This document shows positions 10,075 to 30,800 of a stretch of 64,000 bases of DNA, piece after piece. The position numbers and the translations under genes are program-made. Source of the stretch: Clostridia bacterium (GTDB lineage Bacteria; Bacillota; Clostridia; Christensenellales; CAG-138); the NCBI GenBank assembly GCA_017428025.1, contig JAFRRO010000015.1, positions 1 to 64,000 of the forward strand, given 5' to 3'. The notes under the pieces were generated by a model, which worked only from the letters and a program-made list of their open reading frames with translations, did no database searches and was not told where the DNA came from. Numbering within the stretch: the first letter of the stretch is position 1; each line of letters begins with the position of its first letter.

Positions 10075-10306
10075 GTTGAACGGGAAGAGTAGCGCGGGCA
10101 AAGTCCGAAGCGAGCCGCGTCCGGTGCAAGGCGGCGGCGGAACCTGCGTGAAAATCACCCGCGAGTGGAACGGCGAAGGACAGGTCTGCGTAGCCGCTCC
10201 CGTCTCCCGCGTTAAGGGGATCGAGCGGACAGGGGAAACTCTGTCAACCGAGGTGGTACCGCGAACGAGCTTCGTCCTTGGAACGGACGGAGCAATTGTT
10301 TTTTTT
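10075..10306 (+). promoter_or_regulatory. T-box riboswitch (isoleucine) with terminator, ileS leader
   Basis: The leader carries the T-box core TGGTACCGCG (10254-10263), which pairs with the uncharged tRNA acceptor end. A terminator follows: CTTCGTCC (10270-10277) with GGACGGAG (10285-10292), then eight T's. The proposed specifier ATC (Ile) at 10154-10156 sits in gcGTGAAaATCaCC. The thrS leader has ACC at the equivalent place in gcGTGAAgACCgCC, which supports both assignments. Uncharged tRNA-Ile is expected to stabilise the antiterminator and switch on ileS. Confidence 0.9.
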
Positions 10307-10316
10307 GGAGGAAAAG

Positions 10317-13300
10317 ATGTACAGGAAAGTATCGACAGACATGGACTTTGTTTCCCGCGAGAAGGAAACGCTGGCATTTTGGAAGGAAAACCGCGTCTTT
10401 GAAAAGAGCGTCGAGTGGCGCAAGGGCTGCCCCGCGTTCACGTTCTTCGACGGACCGCCCACGGCGAACGGAAAGCCGCATATCGGGCACGTCCTGACCA
10501 GAAGCATCAAGGACCTGATCCCGCGCTACAAGACCATGAAGGGCTACGACGTGCTGCGCAAAGCGGGCTGGGATACGCACGGGCTTCCGGTCGAACTCGA
10601 AGTCGAAAAATCGCTCGGGCTCGACGGCAAGGAGCAGATCGAGGCGTACGGCGTCGAACCGTTCATCAAGGCGTGCAAGCAGTCCGTGTGGAAGTATGAA
10701 TCCCAGTGGCGCGAGATGAGCGACCGCGTCGGCTTCTGGTGCGACATGGACAACCCCTACGTCACCTACAAGGACGACTATATCGAGTCCGAGTGGTGGG
10801 CGTTGAAGACGATCCACGAAAAGGGACTGCTCTATAAGGGGCACAAGATCGTCCCGTACTGCCCGCGCTGCGGCACGGCGCTTTCGAGCCACGAGGTCGC
10901 GCAGGGCTATCACGACGTCAAGGAAGTTTCGTGCATCGCGCGTTTCTATCTGAAGGACGGCAGCGGCACGGCGATCCTCGCGTGGACGACCACCCCGTGG
11001 ACCCTGCCTTCGAACGTCGCGCTGTGTGTCAATGCGCACGAGACGTACTGCAAGGTCGTTTCGGAGGGCAAAACCTATATCATGGCGGAAGCGCTCGTTC
11101 CGTCGGTGCTCGGCGAGGGCGCAAAGATCGTCGAAACCTTCTCCGGCGAGAGTCTGATCGGCACCGAGTACGAACCGCTGTTCGACCTTCCGGTGAACTT
11201 CCGCGGCAAGAAGCCGTACCGCATCGTGGCGGACGATTACGTTACGCTGACCGACGGCACCGGCGTCGTCCACATCGCGCCGGCGTTCGGCGAGGACGAC
11301 AACCGCGTCGGCAAGGTCTGGGATCTGCCGTTCCTGCAGCTCGTCAACACTTCCGGTCATATGTGCGGCGGCACGCCGTGGGACGGGCTGTTCGTCAAGG
11401 AAGCGGACAAGCCGATCCTCGAAGCTTTGAAGGAGAGCGGCAAGCTGTTCAAAGCGCTCCCGTTCGAGCACAGCTATCCGTTCTGCTGGCGCTGCGACAC
11501 GCCGTTGATCTACTACGCCCGCGAAAGCTGGTTCATCAAGATGACCGCGGTCAAGGACAAGCTGATCTCCTTCAACAAGGCGGTCAACTGGATCCCCGAG
11601 ACGATCGGCGAGGGCCGCATGGGCAACTTCCTCGAGAACGTCATCGACTGGGGCATCTCGCGCGAACGCTACTGGGGCACGCCGCTGCCGGTGTGGATGT
11701 GCGACTGCGGTCACGTCCACGTGATCGGAAGCCGCGCCGAGCTCAAAGCCATGAGCCGCAACTGCCCGGACGACATCGAGCTGCACAAGCCCTACATCGA
11801 CGCGGTCGAGGTCGTCTGCCCGAAGTGCGGAAAGATCATGAAGCGCGAACCGGTCGTCATCGACTGCTGGTTTGATTCCGGCTCCATGCCGTTTGCGCAG
11901 TGGCACTATCCCTTCGAAAACAAAGAGGAGTTCGAGCGCCGCTATCCCGCCGACTTCATTTCCGAGGCGGTCGATCAGACGCGCGGCTGGTTCTATACGC
12001 TGATGGCGGTGGCGACCTGCCTCTTTGACCGGACGCCGTTCGAAAACTGTGTGGTGCTCGGGCTCGTTTGCGACAAGGACGGCAAGAAGATGTCCAAGCA
12101 CATCGGCAACGTCATCGCGCCTGCGGACGTGCTCGAAAAACAGGGCGCCGACGCGGTCCGCTGGTACTTCTACACGGCGAGCGCGCCGTGGCTGCCGTCG
12201 CGCTTCTCGGGCGAGGCGGTCAGCGAATATCAGCGCAAGTTCATGGCGACGCTCTGGAACACCTACGCGTTCTATGTGCTCTACGCCGACATCGACGGCT
12301 TCAACCCGACCGAGCACACGCTCAAGAAGGAGAACCTCTCGCTGATGGATCGCTGGATCCTTTCGCGGCTGCAGACGCTGACCGCGCGCGTGGACGGCAA
12401 TCTCGAAGCGCTGCACATCACTGAGGCGGGCAGAGAGCTGATTGACTTTGCGGATGAACTTTCGAACTGGTACGTGCGCCGCTGCCGCGACCGCTACTGG
12501 GGACCGGAGATGACCGACGACAAGGAAGCGGCGTATATGACGCTGTACACCGTATTGAAGACGGTCGCGCTGCTGACCGCGCCGTTTTTGCCGTTCATGA
12601 CCGAGGCGATCTACCAGAACATCGTCCGCAGCGTCGATCCGGACGCGCCGATCTCCGTGCATCTCAACGACTATCCGACCGTCGACGCATCGTTCACCGA
12701 CGAGGCGCTGGAGGACGAGATGAAGAAGGTCCTCAACATCGTCACCGTCGGCAGAAGCGCGAGAAACACCGCGGCGCAGAAGACGCGTCAGCCGCTGCAG
12801 AAGATGTACGTGCAGGGCGAAGCGCTTTCGGAACGCGCGGCAAAGATCGTGCGCGAAGAGCTCAACGTCAAGGAGATCGCGTTCATCGCGAACGCCGACG
12901 ACCTGATGAGCTATAAGGTCAAGCCGCAGCTCCGCACGCTGGGACCGCGCTACGGAAAACTGCTCGGAAAGATCAGTGCGCACCTTGCCGCAAACGGCGA
13001 CGCGATCGTGCGCACGCACCACGCGGGCAAGGACTATACCTTCGAGGTCGACGGCACCGAGGTCGTGCTTTCGCCGGACGACGTGCTCGTTTCGACACAG
13101 CAGAAGGAAGGGCTCGTCTCCGAACAGGGCGGCGGCGTGACGGTCGTGCTCGACACGAACCTGACGCCGGAGCTCATCGAGGAGGGCGTTGTGCGCGAGC
13201 TCGTCTCGAAGATTCAGACGATGCGCAAGGAAGCCGGGTTCGAGGTCGCGGACCACATTCGCATCGGCTATGCGAATGGCGCCAAGACGGCGGCGATCCT

Positions 13301-13427
13301 CACGAAGTACGCGGACGGCATTCTGGCGGACACGCTTGCCGAGCGCGCCGAGGAGGGCGTCTTCGGCTACACCAAGGAATGGGACCTGAACGGCGACAGA
13401 ATCACCCTGTCGGTCGAACGGGTTTGA
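10317..13427 (+). CDS. ileS: Isoleucyl-tRNA synthetase, long (eukaryote-like, type 2) form
   Basis: A 1036-residue class I synthetase that charges tRNA-Ile. HIGH is at residues 55-58 (GKPHIGHVLTRSIKD), the editing (CP1) domain follows, and KMSKH is at 591-595 (in place of KMSKS). WDTHGLPVE and the DQTRGWFYTL motif are as expected. Overall length and the HIGH context match the type 2 IleRS common in Clostridia, archaea and eukaryotes rather than the E. coli type; type 2 enzymes are generally less sensitive to mupirocin (family knowledge). I chose ATG 10317 because GGAGG lies 5 bp upstream. An in-frame ATG further up overlaps the leader terminator and is not credible. Confidence 0.97.
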   Translation: MYRKVSTDMDFVSREKETLAFWKENRVFEKSVEWRKGCPAFTFFDGPPTANGKPHIGHVLTRSIKDLIPRYKTMKGYDVLRKAGWDTHGLPVELEVEKSLGLDGKEQIEAYGVEPFIKACKQSVWKYESQWREMSDRVGFWCDMDNPYVTYKDDYIESEWWALKTIHEKGLLYKGHKIVPYCPRCGTALSSHEVAQGYHDVKEVSCIARFYLKDGSGTAILAWTTTPWTLPSNVALCVNAHETYCKVVSEGKTYIMAEALVPSVLGEGAKIVETFSGESLIGTEYEPLFDLPVNFRGKKPYRIVADDYVTLTDGTGVVHIAPAFGEDDNRVGKVWDLPFLQLVNTSGHMCGGTPWDGLFVKEADKPILEALKESGKLFKALPFEHSYPFCWRCDTPLIYYARESWFIKMTAVKDKLISFNKAVNWIPETIGEGRMGNFLENVIDWGISRERYWGTPLPVWMCDCGHVHVIGSRAELKAMSRNCPDDIELHKPYIDAVEVVCPKCGKIMKREPVVIDCWFDSGSMPFAQWHYPFENKEEFERRYPADFISEAVDQTRGWFYTLMAVATCLFDRTPFENCVVLGLVCDKDGKKMSKHIGNVIAPADVLEKQGADAVRWYFYTASAPWLPSRFSGEAVSEYQRKFMATLWNTYAFYVLYADIDGFNPTEHTLKKENLSLMDRWILSRLQTLTARVDGNLEALHITEAGRELIDFADELSNWYVRRCRDRYWGPEMTDDKEAAYMTLYTVLKTVALLTAPFLPFMTEAIYQNIVRSVDPDAPISVHLNDYPTVDASFTDEALEDEMKKVLNIVTVGRSARNTAAQKTRQPLQKMYVQGEALSERAAKIVREELNVKEIAFIANADDLMSYKVKPQLRTLGPRYGKLLGKISAHLAANGDAIVRTHHAGKDYTFEVDGTEVVLSPDDVLVSTQQKEGLVSEQGGGVTVVLDTNLTPELIEEGVVRELVSKIQTMRKEAGFEVADHIRIGYANGAKTAAILTKYADGILADTLAERAEEGVFGYTKEWDLNGDRITLSVERV

Positions 13428-24384: not shown

Positions 24385-26325
24385 CTATTGCTGGGGAGTT
24401 TCCCGTTCGTATTCGTCGATGGCGGCTTCGAGCCGTTCGATCGCTTCCTCGACCGTCACGCCCTTGAGCTGTGCGCCCGCCATCGTCAGGTGTCCGCCGC
24501 CGCCCAGTTTTTCGAGAATCATCTGGACGTTGATCTGTCCGTAGCTTCTGCCGGAGATCGCCACCTGTTCGTCCGTCTCGGCAAGCACGAACGCCGCATA
24601 GATGCTGCGGATGCCGAGTAGCTCGTCCGCCGCCTGCGCCGCAAGCAGCATGGCGTCCGGCGTGTTCTTTTCGACGACCGAGATCGCGATCCCGCTCTTG
24701 CGGATCGTTGCGCGCTCCACGACGTTCGCGCAGCGCACATAGCTTGAAAAATCGTTCTGGAACATCATCTTGACCGAGCTGAGGTCCGCGCCGTTGCGCC
24801 TAAGATACCCGGCCGCATCGAACGTGCGCGAGCCGACGTTGAACGCAAACTGCTTGGTGTCCACGGTGATGCCGGCGAGCAGCGCGCTGCAGGTGAACGC
24901 CGCGGGCTTGACGTTGTCCGCAAAGTACTGCATGACCTCGGTCACCATCTCGCTCGCGCTCGACGCGCGCGTTTCGAGGTAGTGCAGCGTCGCGTTGTCG
25001 ATGTAGTCCGCGTTGCGGCGGTGATGGTCGATGAGTACGATGTGCTCCGTGAGCTTTAAAAGCTCCGGTGCAACCGTGTTCGAGGCGCGCTGCGTGTCGA
25101 CGACGACGAGCACCGAATTCGGCTTCATCATCTCGGCCGCCTGCGACGGCTCTATGATCAGCGAGGCGGCGCCGGAGCGCTCGAGCGTGTGCACCGCGTC
25201 CTCGATCGTGGTGTTGACGGCGTCGAGCACGATGTAGGCGTGCGCGCCGACGTGGTTCGCGCAGGTCATGACGCCGAGCGCCGCGCCGAGGCAGTCCATG
25301 TCGGAGTTCTTGTGCCCCATGATAAAGATGTCGCCGCTGTTCTCAAACAGCTGGAACAGCGCCTTGGAGAACAGACGCGCCTTGACGCGCGACTGGCGGG
25401 CGTCGTGCTGCCGCTTGCCGCCGTAGAAGCGGTAGTCCGTGCCGTCCTTGACGACGACCTGATCGCCGCCGCGTCCGAGAGCAAGCTCCATGGCGCGCCG
25501 CGCGTCCGTTTCCGACTGCGCGAGCCGCGGCGCGATGCCGAAGCCGATCGACAGCGAGACCGCCGCCGCCGAACCCGTGTCGATGTGATGCGCCTGTTCG
25601 AGGATCGCAAAGCGCTCCTGTTCGAGCTGCTGCAGCTGCTTCGACTCGAGGATCAGCAGGAACCGTCCGTTGTCGTAGCGCCGGTAGAGCCCGCCGAGAC
25701 GTTTCGAAAGATCGCCGATCAGCCGTTCGACCTCTGCAAGCACCGCGGTGCTGTGTACCTGCGCGTCGCTCAAAAGCTCCTCATAGTTGTCCACAAAGAT
25801 CATCGCTACGTACGGGCGCTGTTCGGTGTACAGCCGTTGATAGTGCGCCGCCTCGGTGCGGTCGAGCCAGTATTCGAGCACGAGCTGCCGTTCGTGTTCG
25901 CGCTGCACCAGCATGTGCATGACCTGATAGTTCGAGCCGTTGTACTCGACCTGCAGCACGCGGATCGGATGCGAGCCGTCAAATTCCGGCGCGATGTCGT
26001 GCACGTTGTTGCTGTCGGTCAGCGCGGCAAACGCGTTGTTGCGCCACGTGATGCGCCCCGAAAGGTCGAGGATCGCGCAGGGGATCGAGATGTTCTGCAC
26101 GAGCGAGGCGACCGCGCTTTCGTTTTCGCGGAACACGCTGTCCATCTTTGACTGCTGCCGCTTCGCAATGCCCGTCAGAAGCGCCGTCATCACGCCGAGC
26201 CAGATCAGCCCGACGCCGAGCACGGCAAGCGCCAGCCGGTACTGCTTCGTGAACAGCGCGATCGCGCCCGCGCCGAGCGCGAGCAGCACGCCGAAAGCAA
26301 TGAGAATTCCGCTGTATTGCTTCAT
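24385..26325 (-). CDS. gdpP: Cyclic-di-AMP phosphodiesterase GdpP (DHH-DHHA1)
   Basis: A 646-residue membrane enzyme that hydrolyses c-di-AMP, controlling cell-wall and osmotic homeostasis. Two N-terminal membrane helices (about 5-50) precede a PAS-like region (NISIPCAILDLSGRITWRNNAF), a degenerate GGDEF domain (YDNGRFLLILE), the DHH domain (FIMGHKNSDMDCLGAALG ... VLIDHHRR) and a C-terminal DHHA1 domain (GGGGHLTMAGAQL). I chose the ATG at 26325: it overlaps the stop of the upstream gene (ATGA) and begins the membrane anchor. A longer open frame upstream lies inside the yybS coding region. The stop is TAG. Confidence 0.94.
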   Translation of the reverse strand: MKQYSGILIAFGVLLALGAGAIALFTKQYRLALAVLGVGLIWLGVMTALLTGIAKRQQSKMDSVFRENESAVASLVQNISIPCAILDLSGRITWRNNAFAALTDSNNVHDIAPEFDGSHPIRVLQVEYNGSNYQVMHMLVQREHERQLVLEYWLDRTEAAHYQRLYTEQRPYVAMIFVDNYEELLSDAQVHSTAVLAEVERLIGDLSKRLGGLYRRYDNGRFLLILESKQLQQLEQERFAILEQAHHIDTGSAAAVSLSIGFGIAPRLAQSETDARRAMELALGRGGDQVVVKDGTDYRFYGGKRQHDARQSRVKARLFSKALFQLFENSGDIFIMGHKNSDMDCLGAALGVMTCANHVGAHAYIVLDAVNTTIEDAVHTLERSGAASLIIEPSQAAEMMKPNSVLVVVDTQRASNTVAPELLKLTEHIVLIDHHRRNADYIDNATLHYLETRASSASEMVTEVMQYFADNVKPAAFTCSALLAGITVDTKQFAFNVGSRTFDAAGYLRRNGADLSSVKMMFQNDFSSYVRCANVVERATIRKSGIAISVVEKNTPDAMLLAAQAADELLGIRSIYAAFVLAETDEQVAISGRSYGQINVQMILEKLGGGGHLTMAGAQLKGVTVEEAIERLEAAIDEYERETPQQ

Positions 26326-27374
26326 ACCAAAGTTCCGTCCTTCCCGTCGTTCATAGGTTTGCTCAGCGACGCGATCATGCCGATCAACGAAAGCATCGTC
26401 AGCCCGAAGGTCGGCAGCGTCAGCGCGCCGCAGCATACGATCACGAAGATCCAACGCTTCTTCAACTTGGCCGCGATCCCGTACACCGTCGCCAGACCGG
26501 CAAGCGCGCAGGGGAGCCGCCACACGAGCATCGCCACGGCGGACAGCGCATCCATGCCGTTGACGTTCATCATCGCCAGCACATAGCTCACGATCGTCAG
26601 CGCCGTCGCCGCGTAGACGAACGGGCGTTCGCACCGCCATTGCGCAAACGGGGGAAGCGCGGTAAGCTCCGCGCCGCCTCTGCGGTTCAGAAGATGCGAG
26701 AACAGCACGTTCGAAAGCCCCGCGCACATCGCGGGCGCGGCGAGGACCGGTATGCCGATCGCGTACGCGTTGAGCCGGTACGACGCAACGATGTCGAGAA
26801 TCGCCGTATAGCGCGCGTCGACCTCGCCGCTCTCGGCGGTAAAGTACGGGGCAAACGACTGCGCCATGCGCTCGTACGCCGAGATCACGGTTTTGAACGG
26901 CAGGTACGCGTCGCCGTTCTCGATGAGATCCCGCAGGCACACATAGCCGAACAGCGCGAACAGCAGCGCCACCGACGCATAGAGCACCGTGCGGAAGTTC
27001 GAAAGCTTCAGCCGCTGCAGCACATACAGTCCCGCGCCGGGCAGCGCCGCAAGCAAAAGCGCGTACAGCGCGGCAGCCGCGTCTCGCGTGAGGAAGAATC
27101 CGAACCCGAATGCAAGCGCCGACAGCGCGATCAACGTCCACAGCCCGAACGCATGCGCCGCGCGCGCCCAGAGCGCCGGCACGATCAGCAGCAGCGCAAC
27201 GGTCAGGATCTGCTTGAGCAGGTATGCCGAAAGCAGCGCGTACGGATCGCCGTCCGCGGGCGGGTTCAGCCATGCCGCGCTCGGGACGAACACCAAAAGC
27301 AGCGTGCCGATCGCGGCACACAAAAGCCACAGCCGTTCCGGGGTATTTGTTTGCGGTCGCTTATAAAAATCCAT
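26322..27374 (-). CDS. yybS: YybS-like DUF2232 membrane protein
   Basis: A 350-residue polytopic membrane protein with about eight hydrophobic segments and no visible catalytic motif. Position immediately before gdpP-rplI-dnaB and the membrane topology identify it as the YybS/DUF2232 protein of Firmicutes. Its function is not established. It overlaps gdpP by 4 bp. It is the first gene of the operon, with the iteron-like palindrome array about 120 bp upstream of its start. Confidence 0.8.
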   Translation of the reverse strand: MDFYKRPQTNTPERLWLLCAAIGTLLLVFVPSAAWLNPPADGDPYALLSAYLLKQILTVALLLIVPALWARAAHAFGLWTLIALSALAFGFGFFLTRDAAAALYALLLAALPGAGLYVLQRLKLSNFRTVLYASVALLFALFGYVCLRDLIENGDAYLPFKTVISAYERMAQSFAPYFTAESGEVDARYTAILDIVASYRLNAYAIGIPVLAAPAMCAGLSNVLFSHLLNRRGGAELTALPPFAQWRCERPFVYAATALTIVSYVLAMMNVNGMDALSAVAMLVWRLPCALAGLATVYGIAAKLKKRWIFVIVCCGALTLPTFGLTMLSLIGMIASLSKPMNDGKDGTLV

Positions 27375-27495
27375 ACTCCCATTTTACGCATTTTTGCGCA
27401 AGCCGTCAAGTGCCAACCGAAAGATTGCGCCGCCCGCCGGGCCCTCCGGCGCCGCCGATCGCCGGGGGCGTTTCTTCCTATGTAACGAAACCTTA

Positions 27496-27600
27496 TATAT
27501 ATCGGATCCGATATATAACGGATACTGAAATATAACGGATTCGCTATATACCGGATCCGGTATAAAGAGAAGAATGAAATATAATACCGTATCCGTTACA
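27496..27600. repeat. Array of palindromic TATA-N-CGGAT iterons
   Basis: A perfect 22-bp palindrome centred on GGATCC (27496-27517) and a perfect 18-bp palindrome also centred on GGATCC (27547-27564) flank two further copies of TATAACGGAT. The CGGAT cores start at 27503, 27519, 27536 and 27552, a spacing of 16-17 bp. An inverted copy (CGTATCCGTTA) lies at 27588-27598. Regular spacing and symmetry suggest cooperative binding of a dimeric protein upstream of the yybS-gdpP operon. Confidence 0.8.
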
Positions 27601-27765
27601 GCGGAGAACGTTTTGTTCATCTTCTCTTTGAAACGAAGAACCGACGCTTTCTCTCTTGCCGGTTCCATTATAGCATGTTGAATTGTGACGGATTACACAC
27701 TTTTTTTACAAATGCGATTTTTTCCCGTTTGTCTCTGAATTGTGTCAAATTCACTCCGGTTTGAA

Positions 27766-27792
27766 AAAAACGCCCGAAAACAGGGCGTTTTT
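27766..27792 (-). terminator. Terminator of the RND exporter gene
   Basis: AAAAACGCCC (27766-27775) pairs with GGGCGTTTTT (27783-27792). The T-run on the minus strand is on the correct side of the RND gene stop at 27846. It is symmetrical and could act both ways. Confidence 0.85.
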
Positions 27793-27845
27793 CAGAGGTT
27801 AAAATCGGTTGAAAAAAGGGAAATTTTCCGCTGCCTTTTATGGTA

Positions 27846-30800
27846 TCATTCGGATGGTAGGGAGGATTCCTTCAGAGCCGCTTCCTCCGCGGCGATGCGG
27901 TTGAACCACTTCTTCGACGCACCGGCGTTGCGCCGCAGAAGATCGTAGAGCACCGGTATGATGAACGCAGTCATCAGCGTGGCATAGGTCAGTCCGCCGA
28001 TACACACGACCGCCACCGGCTGTACGATCTCCGCGCCCGTGCCGAATCCGATCGCAAGCGGCAACAGCCCGAGGATCGTGGTCAGCGCCGTCATCAGCAC
28101 CGGACGGAGACGGATCACCGTGGCTTTGACGATCGCTTCGCGCTTGTCCATGCCCTCCTCGCGAAGGCGGTTGGCACAGTCTACGAGTACGATGCCGTTG
28201 TTGACCGCGATGCCGACGAGCATGATGAAGCCGATCATCGCGACGATGCTGACCTCGCTGCCGGTGATGAGCAGCCCCAGGAACCCGCCCGCAAACGCCA
28301 GCGGCACCGTGCCGATCACGATGAACGGGGAGAGCAGCGACTGGAACTGCGCGACCATGATGAGGTAGATGATGAGAATGCCGAGCAGTAGCATCCACAG
28401 CAGGTCCTTCAAAGCGCTGTTGATCGTCTCATTCTGCCCGTCGTAGACGATGGAGCAGCCCGCGGGCAGGTCGATCGCGTTGACCGCCTTCTGCACGTCG
28501 CGGCTCACGAGCGTGATGTTGTAGCCGTCTTTGAGCGTACCGGTCACGGACAGGCAGCGCCGCTGATCCAGACGGTTGACCGACGCGAGCGTCGTCGTTT
28601 CGGTGATCGTCGCGATCTCGGAGAGCTTGACGGTTTCGACCGACTGATCGAGCCGTGTGACCGTGAAGGTCAGGTCCTCCAGCGCCTGTCTCGAGTGCGG
28701 TACGCCGCTGTCCGAAATGATCGTGACGTCGAGAGAGGTTGTGTTCGAGGCGACGGAGGTGGAGGAGGCGCTGTTCTTCAGAAGCGCCGCCAGCTTCAGG
28801 TACGTTTCCGCTACGGTCAGCCCGCGCTCTGCCGCCTTTGCCTTGTCGACCGATACGTGCAGCGTCGGCGTCGTCTTGTCCGCGCCGCCCTTGACCTCGC
28901 CGATGCCGTCCACGGTCAGAAGCGCAGCCGAAACGCGTTCGGACACGTCCGCAAGCACCGACAGGTCGTTCGCGTAGATCGTGATGCCGACGTCGTCGCC
29001 GGACAGCGTGCCGGACATGCTCATCGTGCTCATGCCCGCCACGGTATAGGGATAGCGCTTGCCGAGCTCGCCCAGCGCCGCGTCGATCTCATCGTGAATG
29101 TCGAGGCTCGATTTGCCGCTCTTTTCGTCGATCAGCGCGTACATCGTGAGCTCGCTCGCCGCGCTGTTGCGCGAATCGGTCAGCCCGATGATCGAGGCAA
29201 TGCCGTTGCCGAGCATGCCGCCCGTGTCGGACAGACCATCGACCGTGTACATCGCCGCCATGAATTCGTCCGCGATCGCAACCGCGTCCTCAAAGGAGGT
29301 GTCCTCCGGCAGCGGCACCGTGACCGAGACCTGTTTGCCGCCGCTCTCGGGGAAGTAGGCGAACCCGCGCCGGATGACGAGCCACGCCGAGCCCAGCAGG
29401 ATCACAAGCGCAAGGAGCAGCGCGATCGCGCGGTGGTTCAGCACAAAGCGCAGCGCCTTTTCGAACGCCGCCATCAGCTTTTCGCGGCGCACGCTCTGCT
29501 GTTTGACGGGACGGCGCAGCACGCCGGTCACCATCGCCGGAATGACGGTCATCGCAATGATCAGGCTCGCGAGCAGCGAGTAGGTCACGGTCAGTACCAT
29601 GTCCATGAAGATCTGCCGCGTCAGCCCCTGCACAAACAGGATCGGCACGAACACGCAGATGGTCGTGAGCGTCGACGCGGTGATCGCGCCCGCCACCTCC
29701 TTGACGCCCTGCACCGCCGCGGTCTTGACCGCCACGCCTTCGCTGCGCAGACGGTAGATGTTTTCGATGACGACGATCGAGTTGTCGACGAGCATGCCGA
29801 TGCCGATCGCAAGACCGGACATGGAGATGATGTTCATCGTCACGCCCGAGAAGTACATCAGCACGAGCGCGAACAGCACCGACACCGGAATCGAGATGCC
29901 GACAATCAGCGTCGGACGGAGATCGCGCAGGAAGAGGAAGAGGATCAGGATCGCGAGCGCGGCGCCGATCAGCAGGTTTTCGACGACCGACGAGATCGCC
30001 ATGTGGATGTATTCGCCCTGGCTCATCAGCGCGGTAAAGGTCAGCCCGTCGTACTGACCTTCGAGCTCTTTAAATCGCGCCTCCACGTTGTCGGACACCG
30101 TCGCCGTCGCGTAGGCGGACTGCTTTGAGAACGCGAGCAGCACGCCGTTTTCGCCGTTGATCTTTGCGTAGGTCGCGCCGGAGTTGTCCGTGATCTGTAC
30201 ATGCGCAAGGTCGCCGAGCGTGATCGTGCCGAGCGAGCCGATCCCCGCCGAGAACAGCGGCACCGATTCGAGAAACGCCACGTCCTCGATCGTGTCGCCG
30301 ACCGACACGAGCCACTGCATGTCGCCCGCGTCGAGATAGCCTGCGGGCATCGCGAAGTTCTGCGCCTGCAGCAGCTTTGCGACCATGTCCTTGGTCAGAA
30401 TGGTCTTGAGATTCGCCGCGTCCTTGGCGGCGGCAAGCTGTTCTGCGGCGGCCTGTTCCGCCTGTTCGAGCTGCAGCCTGCCCGCTTCGAGCTCCTTCTC
30501 GCCGGCTTCGAGCGCAAGCTTGCCCTCGTTCAGCTTGTTCTGCGCGCTGTTCAGCTGCGCGTAGACCGACTGCTTCTGCTTGTTGAGCTCGGCATAGCCG
30601 TTTTCGACGTCCGCCTTGCCGCTTTCCGCCTGCGAGATCAGCTCGTCGATCGATTGAAGCCCCTGTTCCATCTCGGGGATCGCCGCGTCCAGCTGCGCGA
30701 TCGTATCGTCGATCGAATCGCGCGAAAGCCCGTACGCCGCAAGCTGTTCGTCCGCCTGCGCAAGGCTGTCCGCAATCGTCCGGTATTCCTCGCTCGTGCG

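Follow-up and report, generated by a model that had tools for sequence, protein, structure and literature searches.

Upstream of a yybS-like gene in the DNA analyzed here (the window, a stretch of 64,000 nucleotides) lies a dense array of palindromic and repeated sites, which raises the question of what reads such an array and whether it serves the adjoining gene. An earlier note on the window had described two perfect palindromes, two intervening sites with regularly spaced cores and an inverted site, and sequence inspection agrees: we find the 22-bp palindrome TATATATCGGATCCGATATATA at 27496-27517, the 18-bp palindrome TATACCGGATCCGGTATA at 27547-27564, two TATAACGGAT sites (27514-27523 and 27531-27540), and the inverted site ATACCGTATCCGTTAC. 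The CGGAT cores begin at positions 27503, 27519, 27536, and 27552, i.e., in steps of 16, 17, and 16 bp.

The array and its unit

The sites of the array are well above shuffled sequence. With at most one mismatch, TATAACGGAT matches nine times in the 64-kb window, and seven of these matches are at 27498-27600; 1.1 are expected by chance and the maximum among 100 shuffles of the window is four. Likewise, TATAYCGGATCCGRTATA with up to three mismatches gives three matches in the window, confined to the array, compared to an expectation of 0.03. No Rfam match was obtained at the array.

Alignment with arrays elsewhere (see below) divides the array into 16-bp units, each composed of a 7-bp half-site, a 2-bp center, and a second 7-bp half-site (Table 1). 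Arm pairing across the 2-nt spacer is 55 vs. 16 in shuffles. However, inverted repeats with spacers of 0, 4, and 6 are enriched about as much as those with a spacer of 2, and hence the exact unit boundary rests on the between-species alignment. Taken one by one, the dyads of the window array, and of some arrays in this genome (G000) and its closest congener (G001), exceed shuffles modestly or not at all. A contiguous 14-bp dyad was also considered as the unit; it is weak in many of the G000 and G001 arrays, and the 7+2+7 arrangement was used instead.

The array is intergenic, with the end of an RND-type efflux gene on one side and the yybS-like gene on the other, both on the minus strand. A TTTGGTACATAGGAAG variant of the constant end that closes the array is present on G000 contig C32, in G001, and in G008, with near variants in G016 and G021, while the end TTTCTTCCTATGTAACGAAAC is exactly common to the window, C15, C34, and C57 arrays and occurs as a variant in C32. 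The putative extended -10-like element that reads into the array has a counterpart, TGGTATAAT, at the matching position in G001, and a short potential stem-loop follows each of them. Elsewhere in the window, a T-box leader (RF00230; 10067-10282, plus strand) is located directly 5′ of an IleRS-like ORF (10278-13427).

Table 1. Coordinates of the array units and of features in the flanking DNA (window positions)
Feature	Position	Strand	Remarks
Unit 1, ATATCGGATCCGATAT	27499..27514		7/7 dyad
Unit 2, ATAACGGATACTGAAA	27515..27530	+	One good half-site; holds one of the two TATAACGGAT sites
Unit 3, ATAACGGATTCGCTAT	27532..27547	+	5/7 dyad
Unit 4, ATACCGGATCCGGTAT	27548..27563		7/7 dyad
Unit 5, ATACCGTATCCGTTAC (the inverted site)	27584..27599	-	Form common in other G000 arrays and in G001 arrays
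Constant end, TTCGTTACATAGGAAGAAAC	27470..27489	-	Closes the array; identical at G000 C15, C34, C57, and one congener contig
Putative extended -10-like element, TGCTATAAT	27667..27675	-	Reads into the array
Stretch homologous to the C57 wHTH gene upstream region	27724..27826		blastn, 82%, 103 bp, E 1e-23
Terminator-like hairpin, AAAAACGCCCGAAAACAGGGCGTTTTT	27765..27793		Also upstream of the wHTH gene
Putative wHTH gene promoter relic, GGGAAAT ... TGGTATCAT	27818..27849	+	Gene gone; from alignment with C57 and G001
yybS promoter, TTGACG-N17-TAAAAT	27381..27409	-	Conserved in congeners without the array
yybS-like gene	26322..27374	-	Downstream of the array; followed by a GdpP-like (DHH) coding region, then ribosomal protein L9

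Dispersed arrays and a winged-helix gene

The earlier note proposed a search for further copies, which yielded at least five more arrays in G000, a Christensenella-like gut-bacterium MAG, on contigs C57, C32, C34, C15, and C58. G001 carries several, one of them upstream of yybS in the matching position. Allowing one mismatch, ATACCGTATCCGTTA matches 13 times in G000, 26 times in G001, and 0-2 times in other congeners; its reversed control has no matches in G000 and G001. As to proximity to the origin, in the genomes checked dnaA is on contigs other than those with arrays, except for one dnaA on G008 C79. Lipoprotein genes adjoin the arrays at C58, C15, and G001 C40 (loci L012, L013, and L093), and the one on C58 matches DUF6034.

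The statement that nothing encoded nearby explains the array holds for the window; the same genome does, however, encode a candidate protein at another locus. On C57, the array is flanked by gdhA and by the gene (C57:7573-8151) of a 193-residue winged-helix (wHTH) protein. A wHTH gene also adjoins an array in G008 (C79) and G021 (C50), and homologs were found at 10 further loci in nine congeners (G003, G006, G008 C18, G009, G010 C161, G011, G012 [two], G013, and G014). Each of these 10 loci has its own upstream array, with a palindrome that differs from the unit in the window. At most of them the array separates the wHTH gene from a divergent NlpC/P60-like gene, and an RluA-like gene follows (gene names assigned by reading). 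Upstream of the wHTH genes at L157, L174, and L161, a long hairpin of the type GATCATAATCATGC...GCATGATTATGATC lies within the array region. All genomes are drafts; most look like metagenome bins and some bins are mixed. Between G010 C53 (L098) and G000 the wHTH proteins are 98% identical, as against 50% for the yybS proteins; this discrepancy is suggestive of a contaminated bin or of recent transfer, and the gene is not counted as independent. Moreover, the G008 bin has two full-length dnaA genes (on C79, L203, and on C71), and its two wHTH/array types may therefore come from two organisms.

The AF2 model of the protein has a block with pLDDT 81-90 at about residues 21-89 that forms the winged helix, followed by a predicted disordered linker and a C-terminal helix. 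Foldseek returned generic matches to ArsR/MarR-type wHTH chains (best E 2e-3). No curated family matched above its cut-off, and the sub-threshold Pfam/NCBIfam matches were to HTH_36, HTH_IclR, MarR, and DnaD_N. Beyond the wHTH, the model contains a linker and short helices and no helicase/primase-recruiting C-terminal domain. Hence, of the features expected of an iteron-regulated replicon (RepA_N or Rep_3), a site array beside the protein gene is present, and an initiator with a recruiting C-terminal domain is not. The comparison with plasmid iterons or cooperative operators made in the earlier note stands in kind, given a genome-wide family, dyad units, and a winged-helix candidate binder; its link to the c-di-AMP phosphodiesterase operon is not supported, since the other readable yybS loci keep the promoter without an array (see below) and the arrays in other species are at other genes or between convergent genes.

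Collectively, we regard it as fairly probable that the window array comprises putative 16-bp dyad (7+2+7) sites and that their cognate protein is the small winged-helix protein encoded on C57. In such a model, wHTH dimers would fill the array side by side, about 1.5 helical turns apart. The protein would control transcription at its own locus, and the dispersed arrays might act as further docking sites. As one protein must fit all its sites, the protein and the arrays would be expected to change together. The differently spelled arrays of the relatives suggest a rapidly evolving protein and its sites more than they suggest a switch for the adjoining c-di-AMP gene.

How the array came to lie upstream of yybS is suggested by its flank. 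The 27724-27826 stretch is homologous to the region upstream of the C57 wHTH gene, hairpin and promoter included, and the window array is therefore probably a copy of that upstream region (array, terminator, and promoter relic) without the gene; here we infer the direction of copying between the C57 region and the window. In G001, the same stretch matches (blastn) the yybS-upstream region at 79% and the wHTH promoter region at 72%. The array upstream of yybS has probably been present since the ancestor of G000 and G001.

Other congeners carry arrays of their own units away from the wHTH gene. Those of G006, its AATAAACCTGTTTATT arrays, are on C9 (downstream of ksgA), C10 (upstream of thrC), and C3; those of G014 are on C63 (downstream of ksgA) and C66 (upstream of thrC); and in the G008 bin one array, on C52, adjoins an htpG-like gene. 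The ksgA, C3, and C52 sites are between convergent genes and the thrC site between divergent genes. The thrC locus has arrays in G006, G014, G021, G008, and G013, no array in six genomes without a detected wHTH gene, and none of this type in eight genomes with a wHTH match, two of which (G002 and G020) have only distant homologs. The association between thrC array and wHTH gene is thus suggestive, not strong. G016 has a remnant-like array and no detected wHTH gene. A different kind of array, with 9-bp direct repeats TTTACAATA/TTTACAGTA and inverted copies, is found upstream of thrC in G003 and G010 (L217 and L225), which are among the eight genomes with a wHTH match and no thrC array of the first type.

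The units are species-specific. The sharing of 8-mers is 0.26 within a unit group vs. 0.03 between groups. For the orthologous yybS arrays of G000 and G001 the value is 0.166, below the within-genome means (0.226 and 0.258). Sharing between orthologs is likewise no greater than sharing within a genome for the ksgA pair and, by a slight margin, for the C57/C6 pair. However, the arrays at G000 C32 and G001 C47 share 0.91 and the thrC arrays of G006 and G014 share 0.45, in both cases more than within those genomes, and concerted change of the arrays in a genome therefore appears to be a tendency and not a rule.

Less probable readings: RNA genes, mobile elements, and a yybS operator

Could the arrays function as RNA? 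A promoter of the type AGGAWW-N11-14-GNCGWATWW is positioned directly 5′ of arrays in G006 (three), G014 (two), G008 (two), G011, and G013, and all nine matches to this pattern in 0.9 Mb of fetched loci, which were picked around arrays and a few genes and do not amount to a whole-genome count, directly precede arrays. These AGAGGAWWT-N-GTCGAAT-type leaders fit the sigma-H consensus of Firmicutes regulon promoters (PMC4754846), with a AGAGGATTT-like -35 and a GTCGAAT-like -10 element in each of the five species. A sigma-H homolog, below the NCBIfam cut-off, was detected in 22 of the 23 genomes, such that both the consensus elements and a homolog of the sigma factor expected for sigma-H-dependent units are found in these other species. 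Unlike typical sigma-H promoters, several of these array sites lack a same-orientation protein gene downstream.

The promoters, the hairpins that follow several arrays, and the very stable predicted RNAs of the sigma-H-preceded units (z -5 to -10.7) would be accounted for if the arrays were non-coding RNA genes, each with its own promoter, a hairpin end, and RNA rods with regular internal loops. Good folding is, however, expected of any dyad array, and RNA structure was for this reason rejected as the main signal despite the strong z-scores. The arm mismatches (13% G·T) display no G·U preference and no sign of selection for RNA pairing, and the orientation of the unit relative to the promoter varies within G006 (CCTG in C9 and C10, CAGG in C3). 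Moreover, no sigma-H-type -35/-10 match precedes the array in the window. We therefore consider RNA genes an unlikely explanation.

Considerably less probable is an origin by transposition, in which a transposase would have spread a REP/BIME-like or other miniature mobile element and the arrays would be its copies. A common end, several copies, and presence or absence at orthologous sites would all be in keeping with such an element; yet the species have wholly different units although leaders and some sites persist, and the arrays are linked to the wHTH gene family. A phage element was also considered and rejected: the constant end has no exact match in viral contigs.

The reading in the earlier note, by which the array would serve the yybS/GdpP operon as a dedicated operator, is favored by the location of the array, some 80 bp 5′ of the yybS -35 element, and by its retention upstream of yybS in G001. 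The gene is present in 23 of 23 genomes of the genus, and in the 13 in which the upstream region could be read from a clear promoter match, the array is restricted to G000 and its sister species G001. The other readable loci keep the promoter (TTGAC-N17-TAAAAT type) and are all without the array, which is thus unneeded for the yybS promoter as such. On these comparative data, and with like arrays at unrelated loci, a dedicated operator is very unlikely and was rejected.

Relation to known systems

With respect to the putative wHTH sites, a broader model is conceivable, although we hold it only tentatively: a chromosomal system in which a single wHTH protein derived from a replication initiator, together with dispersed arrays of its cognate sites (in several species within sigma-H-driven units and often between convergent genes), would serve chromosome organization or segregation/copy control, with specificity turning over between species while some genomic positions are kept. 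The data point to a chromosomal role, hitherto undescribed, for a replication-initiator-like domain together with dispersed arrays, possibly under sigma-H control; literature searches on Christensenella relatives returned no account of arrays of this kind. In addition, the genus offers a natural series of candidate matched protein-site pairs from which to learn how a winged-helix protein shifts its DNA target.

Judged from the literature, the arrangement resembles that of StbA of plasmid R388, whose own gene is preceded by stbDRs arrays, with additional copies in other promoters on the same replicon (PMC3098194); in both, a DNA-binding protein would be paired with arrays of short sites at its own gene and elsewhere. 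StbA, however, belongs to a plasmid conjugation module and has 9-bp direct repeats spaced by 2, whereas the arrays discussed here are chromosomal with 16-bp dyads. The N-terminal winged-helix domain is also shared with the RepA_N initiators of staphylococcal plasmids and DnaD-type phage replication proteins [for the RepA_N-DnaD similarity, see PMC5703833]. The array-linked proteins differ from these in being chromosomal and 136-205 residues long and in having the helicase/primase-recruiting domain replaced by a linker and a short C-terminal helix. In tblastn searches, the winged-helix domain gave weak matches, with 28-36% identity, to phage replication proteins and to ICE/plasmid DUF6017 proteins.
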